Of a stretch of 64,000 bases of DNA, positions 54,814-58,953 are shown piece after piece. This DNA comes from Pseudomonadota bacterium (GTDB lineage: Bacteria > Pseudomonadota > Alphaproteobacteria > Sphingomonadales > Sphingomonadaceae): the NCBI GenBank assembly GCA_021847605.1, contig JAJZQN010000017.1:1-64000 (forward strand). Direction: 5' to 3'. The position numbers were made by a program, and so were the translations under genes. Within the stretch, counting starts at the first letter, position 1; each line of letters opens with the position of its first letter. The notes under the pieces were generated by a model. It was not told the origin of the DNA. It saw only the letters and a list, made by a program, of their open reading frames with translations, and ran no database searches.

Positions 54814-54852
54814 AAATGGCCTCTAACTGGAGGCTTGAAGGAGACTTATTTG

Positions 54853-55461
54853 ATGGGCCATGCCCTTTCTCACAGTCATGATACGGCATGGGATGCCATT
54901 TGCCGCTCTCAGGCTGTGATCGAATTCACTCCTGACGGGACGATCGTGTGGGCCAATGACCTCTTTCTGCGTACCATGGGTTATGAACTGGAAGAGGTGA
55001 GGGGGCGGCATCATCGTCTTTTCTGCGAAGCGGCTTACGCTCAGTCTGCGCCCTATGCCAATTTCTGGGCAAAGCTGGCTCAGGGCCAATATGATGCCGG
55101 GGAATATTGTCGCCTGATGAAAACGGGCGGCCGTGTGTGGCTACAGGCTACGTACAATCCGGTTCTGGATGCTGACGGCCGCGTGTCCCGCATCCTGAAG
55201 ATCGCGGCGGACATCAGCCTGTCCTATCGTCTGAAAGACGAGTTGAAGGACAAGGTCGACGGCCTCATCGATATCGTCGATTCCATCGGCCTGATCGCAC
55301 GACAGACCAATTTGCTGGCACTCAACGCCTCCATTGAAGCGGCGCGGGCCGGGGATGCCGGGCGCGGCTTTGCCGTGGTAGCGGCCGAGGTCAAGAAGCT
55401 GGCCGACGATACCCGCAGCGCCACCGAACGCGCACGCGCCATGGTGATCAACGAGCTATGA
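54853..55461 (+). CDS. PAS domain plus short MCP signalling domain, soluble chemoreceptor
   Basis: [38 protein letters not shown]... then [50 protein letters not shown]. Confidence 0.88.
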
Positions 55462-55555: not shown

Positions 55556-56296
55556 TCAATTCTCCGTCTGGGTACGGGGAGCGGGGTCGGCTTCCGCCGT
55601 CGGAGCTTCATTCCTGCTGGCCTGACCCGAGGCTTCGCCCGAAATCTGACCGCTGGCATCGACCGACGCGATACCGTTCAGCGCGCCGGCGCCATTGCCC
55701 GCTGCGGTCCCGGCCGTACCAGCCGCATTGCCAGCAGCAGAGCGGGCCTGACCCACAGCATTGGCGGCCCGATCCCGTGTATTGCCCGCCGCCATGGTGG
55801 CGCGGTCACGGGCTGCGCCAGCCGCATTTTCGGCACGATCCCGGGTGGAGGCGACGGCATTGCCGGCCCGGTCACTGGTTGCGGCGACCGTGCTGCCGGC
55901 CCGGTCACGGGCAGCGCCAGCGGCGGTTCCGGCGCGGTCGCGGACATCACCGACAGCGTTGCGTGCATCATTGGTGCCCAGCGTGTCGACGGCTAGGTTG
56001 CCGCTGGCTGATCCGGATGCGTTCCCGCTGGCCTTGCGTTCAGCGCGGCTGGCGCGGCCAGAAGCGCGGCCATGGCCCGAACCGCCGGCACCGACCTGTC
56101 CATTTTCAAGGTCCATGCTGCGGCTGAGCGAACCGGCGCCACCCAGTGAACCGCCGATCGAACCGCCAAGGCCACCGAGCGAACCACCCAGAGCGCCGCC
56201 GCCAAGGCCGCCGCCACCGCCCAGCAACTGGGCCGAAGCAGGCGCAGCGCTCAGCGCGGTGAGGCAGGCTGCAGCGAGGATGATTTTGGCTTTCAT
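55556..56296 (-). CDS. secreted LEA-like 11-mer repeat protein with Gly-rich N-terminus
   Basis: Signal peptide ...SAAPASAQ; tandem DRAGTAAGAAR DRAGSTVAATS DRAGNAVASTR DRAENAAGAAR DRATMAAGNTR DRAANAVGQAR. Confidence 0.75.
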   Translation of the reverse strand: MKAKIILAAACLTALSAAPASAQLLGGGGGLGGGALGGSLGGLGGSIGGSLGGAGSLSRSMDLENGQVGAGGSGHGRASGRASRAERKASGNASGSASGNLAVDTLGTNDARNAVGDVRDRAGTAAGAARDRAGSTVAATSDRAGNAVASTRDRAENAAGAARDRATMAAGNTRDRAANAVGQARSAAGNAAGTAGTAAGNGAGALNGIASVDASGQISGEASGQASRNEAPTAEADPAPRTQTEN

Positions 56297-56335
56297 GGAT
56301 TGTCTCCTTAGTCCTGTTCAATCTGATGCAAGGAC

Positions 56336-56361
56336 AACGGGAGGCGGGTGCAGTTTCATCC
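56336..56361 (-). promoter_or_regulatory. putative ECF promoter of repeat-protein gene
   Basis: Minus strand GGATGAAAC-N13-CGTT, about 40 nt before the ATG. Confidence 0.55.
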
Positions 56362-56396
56362 CGAACCCATGAAAAATTCATACAATATACTGAAAT

Positions 56397-57650
56397 TCAA
56401 TCTATATTTCTGCAATTGTCGCAGATGATGCCGGCGCCGTAGCCGCGTTTGCCGCCCTTCGGCTCAGCGGCCTCGCTCTTGAGGGCGTCGATCGAACCAC
56501 GGGTGAACAGCCGCCCGGCGACCAGCGGAGTGGCAAAGCTGGTGCCACGCACCGATGCCTTGCCGCCGTCCGCCGAGGCGGCCTTCATATCGGCGCCCGG
56601 CGCGGCGAAATCGACATGCAGCGCCCGTCCGGCTTCTGGCAGCAATCGGTCCCGGCCATCGACACCCGTCACCGCGATGACGCCGGGATAGGAGGCGGGG
56701 TAGGCGGGCGGCGCGGCCGGGCCATCATTGCCGACCGCCGCGACCAGCATCACGCCCCGTTCCCGCGCCAGCCGGATTGCACCGTCCAGCAGGGGATTGG
56801 CCGGTCCCACCAGACTGACGGTCACGACGCGCGCGCCGCGCCCGACCAGCCAGCCCAATGCTCGCGCAATGGCAAAGGCGCCACCGCCCGCCGGATCGTC
56901 GCCATAAACGTCGGCGGCCAGCAACGGCGCGCCGGGCGCGGCGCCGCGCACCATGCCGTTGCCGCTCAACAGAGAAGCAACCGCCGTGCCATGGCTGCTG
57001 GCGCGCGGTGCGCCGCTCGCAAAGCCGCGCTGCTCGATCGGGCCGGTGAGGGCAGGGTGCCGCGCTACGCCTCCGTCGATCAGGCCGATGGCTCGTCCGC
57101 TGACGGGTGCCCCAGTCGCCAGAGCTTCAGCGGAGAGAGCCATGGCGGAGCCGCTGGGAAAATAGAGATTGTCGGCGCTGACCTGTGCATCCGGCGCCAT
57201 CTTGCGTACCTCCCGCATCGCGCGGGCAAGGTTGCGGCCCCTGGGTATGGTCAGCCTGGCGACGCTGAGGTCGATACCCTCCACTTGCTCGCTCTCAACA
57301 CCGTAGCCTGCCTTGCGCAGCGTATCGAGAGCGGTGTCATCCGCCCCGCTCAACAGGATGACGCCCCGTCGGGCTGGCTGTCGCTGATCGTCCAGTTCGA
57401 TCCGGTCGCCATGTCGCCGCAGAAGTTCATCGATGCGCGCCGCGCGTGCGGCCGCCAGCCGACTGCCGAGGCGAGTGGGCGATAGCTGGTCCAGACCCGT
57501 CTGATCCACCACCCCGCCAACCCGGTTCAGGACATCGGGCACCACCTGCCCCAATGCACCCGGCGCTGGCAGCAACTGGGCCTGCGCGCCGGGAATGCCG
57601 CCGGCCATCAGGGCGATGCCGGCAAGGATATAGGCGCGGGTCAGCGGCAT
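56397..57650 (-). CDS. S8 family serine peptidase (secreted)
   Basis: Signal peptide; GLIDGGVARHPAL (Asp), SSHGTAVASLLSGNG (His), VRGTSFATPLVAGRL (Ser). Confidence 0.92.
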   Translation of the reverse strand: MPLTRAYILAGIALMAGGIPGAQAQLLPAPGALGQVVPDVLNRVGGVVDQTGLDQLSPTRLGSRLAAARAARIDELLRRHGDRIELDDQRQPARRGVILLSGADDTALDTLRKAGYGVESEQVEGIDLSVARLTIPRGRNLARAMREVRKMAPDAQVSADNLYFPSGSAMALSAEALATGAPVSGRAIGLIDGGVARHPALTGPIEQRGFASGAPRASSHGTAVASLLSGNGMVRGAAPGAPLLAADVYGDDPAGGGAFAIARALGWLVGRGARVVTVSLVGPANPLLDGAIRLARERGVMLVAAVGNDGPAAPPAYPASYPGVIAVTGVDGRDRLLPEAGRALHVDFAAPGADMKAASADGGKASVRGTSFATPLVAGRLFTRGSIDALKSEAAEPKGGKRGYGAGIICDNCRNID

Positions 57651-57722
57651 GATGGTCGGTTCGGTCCTTTCGGTTGCAAAATCATCCATGGCAGATTTAT
57701 TTCCGATGCTGTCCATTTTTCA

Positions 57723-57754
57723 GGATGAAACGGCTGCGACTGCACGTTTCATCC
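57723..57754. promoter_or_regulatory. interleaved divergent ECF promoters for sigma gene (+) and S8 peptidase (-)
   Basis: GGATGAAAC ggctgcgactgcac GTTTCATCC; GGATGAAAC-N13-CGTT reads on both strands. Confidence 0.55.
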
Positions 57755-57778
57755 CCGAACGGTGGAAATGGAGGCCCG

Positions 57779-58267
57779 ATGTCGTTCGAGCGTGATCTGC
57801 TTGCCCTGCTGCCAAGGTTGCGGCGTTTTGCCGCCAGCCTGTCGCGGGACCGCGCCGATGGCGACGATCTGTGCCAGGCGGCACTGGAGCGCGGCCTCAA
57901 GTCGCGGGACCAGTGGCAGCCGGGTACCCGCCTCGACAGCTGGATGTATCGGATCATGCGCAACCTGTGGATAGATGAGGCCCGCGCCCGGCAAAGGGCA
58001 GCCAGAACCTTCGCTCCCGAAGAGGCCGGGGAAGGCGTTGGCTATGCCGGGGATCGGGATGTGGAGGCGCATATGATGCTGTCCGACGTGGACCGGGCGA
58101 TGCAGGCGTTGCCCGATGAGCAGCGGGAGGCGATCGCCCTCGTGCTGGTGGAGGGGCTTTCGTACAAGGAAGCGGCCGCTGTGCTGGACATACCGATGGG
58201 CACGCTGACCTCGCGGCTTGTGCGGGGACGCGGTGCATTGATCGAACTGATGGGAGAGGCGGCATGA
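57779..58267 (+). CDS. ECF-type RNA polymerase sigma factor
   Basis: RBS GGAGG; LLPRLRRFAASLSRDRADGDDLCQAALERGL...DSWMYRIMRNLWIDEARARQRA...LPDEQREAIALVLVEGLSYKEAAAVLDIPMGTLTSRLVRGRGAL. Confidence 0.95.
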   Translation: MSFERDLLALLPRLRRFAASLSRDRADGDDLCQAALERGLKSRDQWQPGTRLDSWMYRIMRNLWIDEARARQRAARTFAPEEAGEGVGYAGDRDVEAHMMLSDVDRAMQALPDEQREAIALVLVEGLSYKEAAAVLDIPMGTLTSRLVRGRGALIELMGEAA

Positions 58268-58953
58268 ACCAGATTGATGAAGCCATGCTGATCGCGCTGG
58301 TCGATGGCGAACTGGATGAGGTGAACAGGCGCCGGGTGGAACGCGCCGTGGCGGATGACCCTGCGCTGGCGCAACGACTGGCGCAGCATCGGGCGATACG
58401 GGAAAGCCTGTCGGGCCATTATGCCCCGGTCGCCGAAGAGCCGGTACCCGATCGGTTCCGTGTGCTGCTGACGGAAAGCGAAGCCGTGGTGTCGGTGACG
58501 CGGCCGGTCCGCCGCTGGGGCGGTTGGGCAGTGGGCGGCGCCATCGCGGCCAGTCTGGTGCTGGGCCTGGCTGTGGGGCGCTTCTCAGGCGGCGAAGCCG
58601 GGCCGATCGGCATGCAGGGCGGAACGCTGGTGGCGCAGGGCGAACTGGCACGGGCGCTCGATGGGCAACTGGCCTCGGCTCAGGATGGCGCGACGGTCCG
58701 CATGGAATTGAGCTTTCGGCGTAAGGGCGGTGGCTGGTGCCGCAGCTTTGATGGTGCCGTTGCCGGTGTGGCCTGCCGGCAGGATGATGGCTGGCAGGTG
58801 CAACAGATACTCCCCGGCATGACGCAGGGCAGCGACTATCGGCAGGCCTCCTCTGCCGACGCTCGTCTGATGGCGACGGTCGATGCGCTGATCGATGGTG
58901 CGCCAGTCGATGCTGCTGCGGAGAGGGCGGCTCAGGCCAAAGGATGGCGCTGA
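58264..58953 (+). CDS. membrane anti-sigma factor
   Basis: ATGA overlap with the sigma gene; MNQIDEAMLIALVDGELDEVNRRRVERAVADDPALAQRLAQHRAIRESL; single TM WAVGGAIAASLVLGLAVG. Confidence 0.88.
   Translation: MNQIDEAMLIALVDGELDEVNRRRVERAVADDPALAQRLAQHRAIRESLSGHYAPVAEEPVPDRFRVLLTESEAVVSVTRPVRRWGGWAVGGAIAASLVLGLAVGRFSGGEAGPIGMQGGTLVAQGELARALDGQLASAQDGATVRMELSFRRKGGGWCRSFDGAVAGVACRQDDGWQVQQILPGMTQGSDYRQASSADARLMATVDALIDGAPVDAAAERAAQAKGWR

Follow-up and report, generated by a model that had tools for sequence, protein, structure and literature searches.

Positions 55556-58953 of the window (the whole 64,000-nucleotide stretch analysed here, from a member of the Sphingomonadaceae) hold a compact module in which the genes for an extracytoplasmic function (ECF) sigma factor and its membrane-bound anti-sigma factor diverge from the genes for a secreted S8 (subtilisin-type) protease and a secreted Gly/Ala/Ser-rich protein. 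Conservation of the promoter sites and their co-occurrence with the sigma factor gene argue, with a probability that we put at roughly 0.88, that the locus is an autoregulated sigma/anti-sigma switch whose regulon is confined to this one locus and comprises three promoters within 1.4 kb: the sigma factor's own promoter and those of the secreted protease and of the secreted low-complexity protein. Autoregulation of the sigma factor and its control of the S8 and repeat-protein genes had been proposed previously from the letters of this DNA (hereinafter, the sequence-only reading), and the comparative data now lend strong support to that proposal.

Putative promoter sites and their conservation

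The sigma factor gene (57779..58267, plus strand) encodes a 162-aa protein with regions 2 and 4 (Pfam Sigma70_r2 and Sigma70_r4_2) and overlaps by ATGA the anti-sigma gene (58264..58953, plus strand; 229 aa). On the minus strand lie the genes for the S8 protease (56397..57650; 417 aa) and for the Gly/Ala/Ser-rich protein (55556..56296; 246 aa, with a central 11-residue repeat). The start codons of the sigma, S8 and repeat-protein genes (57779, 57650 and 56296, respectively) were all correct on re-examination, as was the ATGA overlap. The exact GGATGAAAC-N13-CGTT sites reported in front of these three genes are likewise present at 57723-57748 on the plus strand and at 57754-57729 and 56361-56336 on the minus strand, but they are not three independent occurrences because the sigma and S8 sites are the two faces of one inverted repeat, GGATGAAACG-N12-CGTTTCATCC (57723..57754, both strands), which leaves one palindrome and one single site. 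Within the palindrome, the putative sigma promoter (plus strand) comprises a -35 element at 57723-57730 and a CGTT -10 element at 57745-57748, and the putative S8 promoter (minus strand) a -35 element at 57754-57747 and CGTT at 57732-57729. The third site, GGATGAAA-N14-CGTT (56336..56361, minus strand), is unidirectional and not palindromic, and is the more telling of the two. If transcription starts 9 nucleotides past CGTT, the spacing of the mapped SMa0142 start of Sinorhizobium meliloti (PMC6180224), the predicted starts are 57757 on the plus strand for the sigma gene (a 5' untranslated region of about 22 nt with a GGAGG ribosome-binding site) and, on the minus strand, 57720 for the S8 gene and 56327 for the secreted-protein gene (untranslated regions of about 70 and 31 nt).

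A genome-wide scan, which the sequence-only reading had suggested as a check, detected no exact match to GGATGAAAC-N12..14-CGTT in the 4.26-Mb genome beyond the three sites of the locus; the reversed-pattern control gave 0 matches, and about 0.06 are expected for the motif from base composition. Relaxation of the motif to GGATKAAR-N14-CGTT added a single match, at C58:13503 near a cobO-like gene; it is directed at the 3' end of that gene and is therefore probably due to chance, so we set it aside.

A single search with the 162-aa sigma factor as the query, run against a collection of species-level genomes, yielded 80 loci in Sphingobium, Sphingomonas, Novosphingobium, Stakelama, Hephaestia, Rhizorhapis, Erythrobacter, Qipengyuania, Croceicoccus and other genera. 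The synteny holds across the sphingomonads, with the anti-sigma gene behind the sigma gene and the S8 gene adjacent and divergent in 80/80 loci, a count that, like those that follow, does not represent independent trials because the loci are related. The palindrome is present in all 81 sigma-S8 intergenic regions, typically as GGAT[G/T]AAACG-N12-CGTTT[C/A]ATCC, with an invariant 12-nt spacer; of the 20 positions in the arms, 18 vary little or not at all and two are the G/T positions, and the flanking sequence is nearly random. Wherever the locus offers enough sequence, a gene for a Gly/Ala/Ser-rich protein with a signal peptide follows the S8 gene, and GGATKAAR-N14-CGTT precedes it exactly in 67 of the 79 assessable loci (7 of the others have one mismatch, 3 have two and 2 have a spacer shorter by 1 nt), compared to full matches in 0/15,800 shuffled segments.

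The unidirectional site points to the true core of the promoter motif, GGATKAAR-N14-CGTT: positions 1-8 and CGTT are fixed, and position 9 is free to vary. The fixed AACG at positions 7-10 of each palindrome arm is explained by the opposite promoter, whose CGTT it forms when read on the other strand; each arm is thus the -35 element of one promoter fused to the -10 element of the other. The AAAC of the motif belongs to the -35 element only in part, its C being variable in the unidirectional site and the AACG of the palindrome doubling as the opposite -10. The assignment to the ECF promoter architecture stands: read as GGATK-N17-CGTT, the sites show the spacing of ECF promoters.

The sites also track the sigma factor. 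Among the 61 genus genomes examined both ways, strict sites are present in 45/45 that encode a sigma orthologue and in 0/16 that do not (Fisher 5e-15, not corrected for the relatedness of the genomes). The S8 gene is missing in 15 of these 16 sigma-less genomes, and G055, the remaining one, retains no more than a contig-end fragment of it; the sites and the protease are lost along with the sigma factor, which indicates that the module is gained and lost as a unit. Across the order, the exact palindrome was detected in 77 of the 401 sampled genomes, all from the family of the window (reversed control 0), and was not found in the other seven families sampled. With the relaxed motif, a genome usually shows the three sites of the locus and about one stray match, several of the strays being one recurring sequence, so that no wider regulon is visible.

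Several sites outside the standard arrangement were recorded. Two palindromes occur together in a small number of genomes (for example, G227 and G285), and in G227 an extra GGATTAAA-N14-CGTT (L160:5568, minus strand) precedes the gene for a secreted-looking protein of 114 aa. In genome G455, the same palindrome occurs on four short contigs (C1, C2, C9 and C10), possibly reflecting assembly duplication or a multicopy segment, and an orphan site in G115 adjoins a transposase-like reading frame. A distant sigma paralogue on a long branch (L152, from contig C5 of G058; 47-49% identity) is accompanied by a GGATKAAACG palindrome and a divergent S8 gene, the product of which lacks the C-terminal CxxC described below and any other cysteine.

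Proteins of the module

The anti-sigma factor had been described as a protein with a single transmembrane segment, and we find one hydrophobic stretch (residues 86-104; predicted helix 91-108). Its AlphaFold2 model (predicted local distance difference test score, pLDDT, 84) suggests a four-helix N-terminal part, the transmembrane helix and a periplasmic beta domain that bears two cysteines, C159 and C171, conserved in 80/81 sequences; E220 and W228 are conserved in 81/81. The cysteine pair is present in 14/14 related modules checked, including the rhizobial ones. Fold searches produced weak matches to class-I anti-sigma factors (RslA, ChrR and RskA), confined to the N-terminal part, and matched the periplasmic domain to no solved structure; a weak NepR-like match appeared in a Pfam-level search. 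Searches of solved structures with profiles of the anti-sigma and third proteins returned only a weak NepR match and low-complexity nanobody artefacts.

The protease belongs to the peptidase S8 family (Pfam Peptidase_S8, E 9.5e-23), with the D192/H220/S371 triad intact in 79/79 sequences, and carries a C-terminal CxxC motif (C410, C413), also in 79/79. Beyond being an output, it might take part in the signalling chain by cutting the anti-sigma factor, either as a site-1 protease or in feedback. Subtilisin-type proteases cleave exposed protein broadly, all 80 loci keep the S8 gene beside the sigma pair, with which it shares a promoter element, and the anti-sigma factor and the protease each carry one invariant cysteine pair. 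On the other side, the S. meliloti protease is strongly induced by RpoE6, as the other targets are, and the C-terminal CxxC is limited to the window's clade, being absent from the rhizobial, Paracoccus and paralogous modules. We regard such a role as possible, if on balance unlikely. Still more speculative, and in our judgement improbable, is a thiol-linked protease circuit in which the anti-sigma cysteine pair would be a switchable disulfide, the CxxC-tailed protease would act back on the anti-sigma factor, an envelope redox insult would set sigma release, a palindrome read in one direction at a time would fix the ratio of inhibitor to protease, and the low-complexity protein would be a partner or substrate of the protease. 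The conserved cysteines of the anti-sigma factor and the protease are the best lead to the sensed signal and to the role of the output.

The third protein starts with a signal-peptide-like segment ending in ASAQLL and shows an 11-residue period, with autocorrelation peaks at lags 11 and 22. The sequence-only reading called it LEA-like, and this holds for the 11-mer in the Sphingobium-type members but not for the family. No Pfam family, and in particular no LEA domain, exceeds the cut-off for the window protein, which yields only weak apolipoprotein or DUF883 matches; assignment to LEA_4 (group 3 LEA) finds no match, and the 11-mer is not conserved in the orthologues. Most orthologues outside the Sphingobium-type members end in a PRC-barrel-like domain, which passes the Pfam cut-off in L085 and L105 (E 1e-14 and 7e-6). 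The AlphaFold2 model of the L069 protein, predicted with confidence for only the C-terminal barrel (pLDDT >90) and part of the middle strands, matches PRC-barrel structures. In L079 (2661-3599), the gene for which has a promoter of the same type, an OmpA domain (E 2.5e-21) replaces the PRC-barrel-like domain; this domain swap suggests an envelope location. Given these PRC-barrel and OmpA ends, the LEA-like appearance is derived in one branch rather than family-defining. A desiccation shield of the LEA type would fit the 11-residue period, its A/R/D pattern in the Sphingobium-type members and the low-complexity composition. Classical LEA proteins are intracellular, however, and this protein bears a signal peptide; together with the missing LEA match and the different domains of the orthologues, this makes such a function doubtful.

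Next to the module, translation of 54835-55461 reveals a PAS-type sensor fused to a short signalling stretch of chemotaxis-receptor type, soon after which the product ends; it resembles a minimal or truncated receptor.

A probable one-locus switch and its alternatives

The window module is best read as working like the RpoE6 module of S. meliloti, with a shifted -35 element and two fused divergent promoters. The membrane anti-sigma factor would hold the sigma factor until the periplasmic domain of the former receives a signal from the envelope; the cysteine pair of this domain may sense redox state or a ligand. The freed sigma factor would then recognise GGATKAAR-N14-CGTT (GGATK-N17-CGTT) in front of its own operon, the S8 gene and the secreted-protein gene. 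The geometry of the fused promoters suggests that RNA polymerase would occupy them in one orientation at a time, and the supply of anti-sigma factor from the sigma operon and the output of protease would therefore be locked together. The two secreted outputs, the protease and a putative envelope protein that is largely disordered, might jointly protect the envelope or remodel it. For the homologue, S. meliloti RpoE6, transcription of the protease gene and a neighbouring gene has been shown to depend on the sigma factor (PMC6180224).

Several considerations weigh against this interpretation. For the sphingomonad members, the case is one of sequence comparison, and the compared loci are related, so the conserved columns are not independent. 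The grouping of the sigma factor with ECF26 proteins is moderately supported (92/82). Mutual exclusion at the fused promoters is a purely geometric argument, and the sensed signal and the roles of the secreted proteins are conjectural.

The sites might instead be promoters of the general stress sigma factor EcfG, which would place the locus in the general stress response. EcfG promoters (GGAAC-N16/17-CGTT; GGAAC-N17-20-GTT in S. melonis Fr1) have the same spacing and -10 element, and the RpoE6 and RpoE2 regulons of S. meliloti overlap (PMC6180224). In the 81 palindromes, however, nearly every arm has TK instead of AC at positions 4-5, and the 16 sigma-less genus genomes lack strict sites although all of them encode other ECF sigma factors (E ~1e-23 to 1e-26), presumably including EcfG-like ones, as the genome of the window does. 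Moreover, the window sigma factor forms its own clade (support 100/97), which groups with moderate support with RpoE6-type proteins, and the two EcfG-like sigma factors of the same genome, one of which adjoins a PhyR-like gene on contig C78, branch elsewhere. We consider this explanation very improbable. That the 32-bp palindrome is not a promoter pair but an operator bound by a dimeric regulator (repressor or activator), as its perfect inverted repeat and invariant spacer might suggest, is highly implausible because the third site is not palindromic and yet keeps GGATKAAR and CGTT at promoter spacing, and the corresponding sites of the homologous S. meliloti genes are mapped promoters.

The autoregulated switch thus outlined offers a complete sphingomonad sigma circuit that is small enough to test whole, with one sigma factor, one inhibitor, three promoters and two secreted outputs, and its -35 and -10 elements common to both strands provide a natural and clean system for testing how divergent promoters compete.

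Relationship to RpoE6 and other known systems

The sequence-only reading did not recognise the gene set as a described system. In part it is one: in S. meliloti, the ECF26 sigma factor RpoE6 and its anti-sigma factor EcfR6 are encoded divergently from the serine protease gene SMa0142, a divergent serine protease beside an ECF26 sigma/anti-sigma pair is reported to be widely conserved, and RpoE6 overexpression induces SMa0142, SMa0146 and SMa0148 (PMC6180224). The promoter resembles but is not identical to that of ECF26, GGAATA/GT, for which the S. meliloti targets have mapped starts (PMC6180224). A literature search, with most subscription papers outside its coverage, found no sphingomonad study of the window sigma factor.

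The sigma, anti-sigma and S8 proteins encoded on pSymA of S. meliloti are 50%, 29% and 37% identical, respectively, to those of the window and are encoded in the same divergent order. Both modules are small autoregulated clusters with a CGTT -10 element located 15 nt from the -35 block. The -35 element is GGAATA in S. meliloti but GGATKAA, one base longer, in the window; S. meliloti lacks the fused palindrome, and its rpoE6 promoter does not match; its S8 protease lacks the C-terminal CxxC; and its third protein is unrelated in sequence and encoded behind the anti-sigma gene rather than behind the S8 gene. We located the published SMa0142, ecfR6 and SMa0148 promoters on pSymA as GGAATA-N15-CGTT, and the same motif precedes the gene for a 128-aa secreted (SSSN)n protein behind ecfR6 (L149:6252-6711), by position SMa0146. 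The published table of promoters does not include this site, even though induction of the gene by RpoE6 is reported (PMC6180224). The same (SSSN)n arrangement is present in S. fredii and S. medicae.

The window-type anti-sigma factor conforms to ECF26 in having a single transmembrane segment between an N-terminal anti-sigma part and a C-terminal periplasmic domain and in being encoded downstream of the sigma gene, and the divergent serine protease conforms in 80/80 loci. Because the -35 element of the sigma and S8 promoters is GGATKAA instead of GGAATA, although the -10 CGTT agrees, we classify the window sigma factor as an ECF26-like relative rather than a member.

The Sphingobium genome G030 carries both promoter types, as it encodes a window-type module and two paralogous modules (L156 and L157; sigma identity 45-49%). 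The latter also consist of sigma, anti-sigma and divergent S8 genes and genes for small secreted RGADD-repeat proteins, each preceded by GGAATA-N15-CGTT, but the promoters lie back-to-back, about 50-60 bp apart and non-overlapping. Given the different -35 elements (GGATKAA and GGAATA) and their joint presence in such genomes, the pair should provide orthogonal parts for synthetic switches.

We considered but rejected the generalisation that ECF26-type S8 modules always include a separately promoted gene for a secreted repeat protein: none was found for Aminobacter, Shinella or Paracoccus, and three Microvirga S8 loci yielded no sigma homologue and no site. Secreted low-complexity proteins unrelated in sequence nevertheless recur beside ECF26-type sigma/S8 modules, namely in window-type Sphingobium, in Sinorhizobium and in the paralogous modules, which suggests a common output for a group whose RpoE6 branch is without known function.

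Two other systems bear comparison. RpoE1 and RpoE4 of S. meliloti belong, like RpoE6, to ECF26 and have small autoregulated regulons and COG5662-type anti-sigma factors, and the first gene of the rpoE1 operon encodes a secreted protein in which a lipoprotein-15 motif is repeated; unlike the window module, they are not reported to involve an S8 protease, and their signal, sulfite, is reported not to induce rpoE6 (PMC3511301). The EcfG/NepR/PhyR system has in common with the window module the GGA...N16-17-CGTT architecture and the weak NepR-like match in the anti-sigma factor, but EcfG (ECF15) uses a GGAAC -35 element, a PhyR partner switch and a large regulon and is not encoded at the window locus. 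The module is real, strongly conserved and well delimited across the sphingomonads, and it is a variant of the sigma/protease arrangement known from rhizobia.

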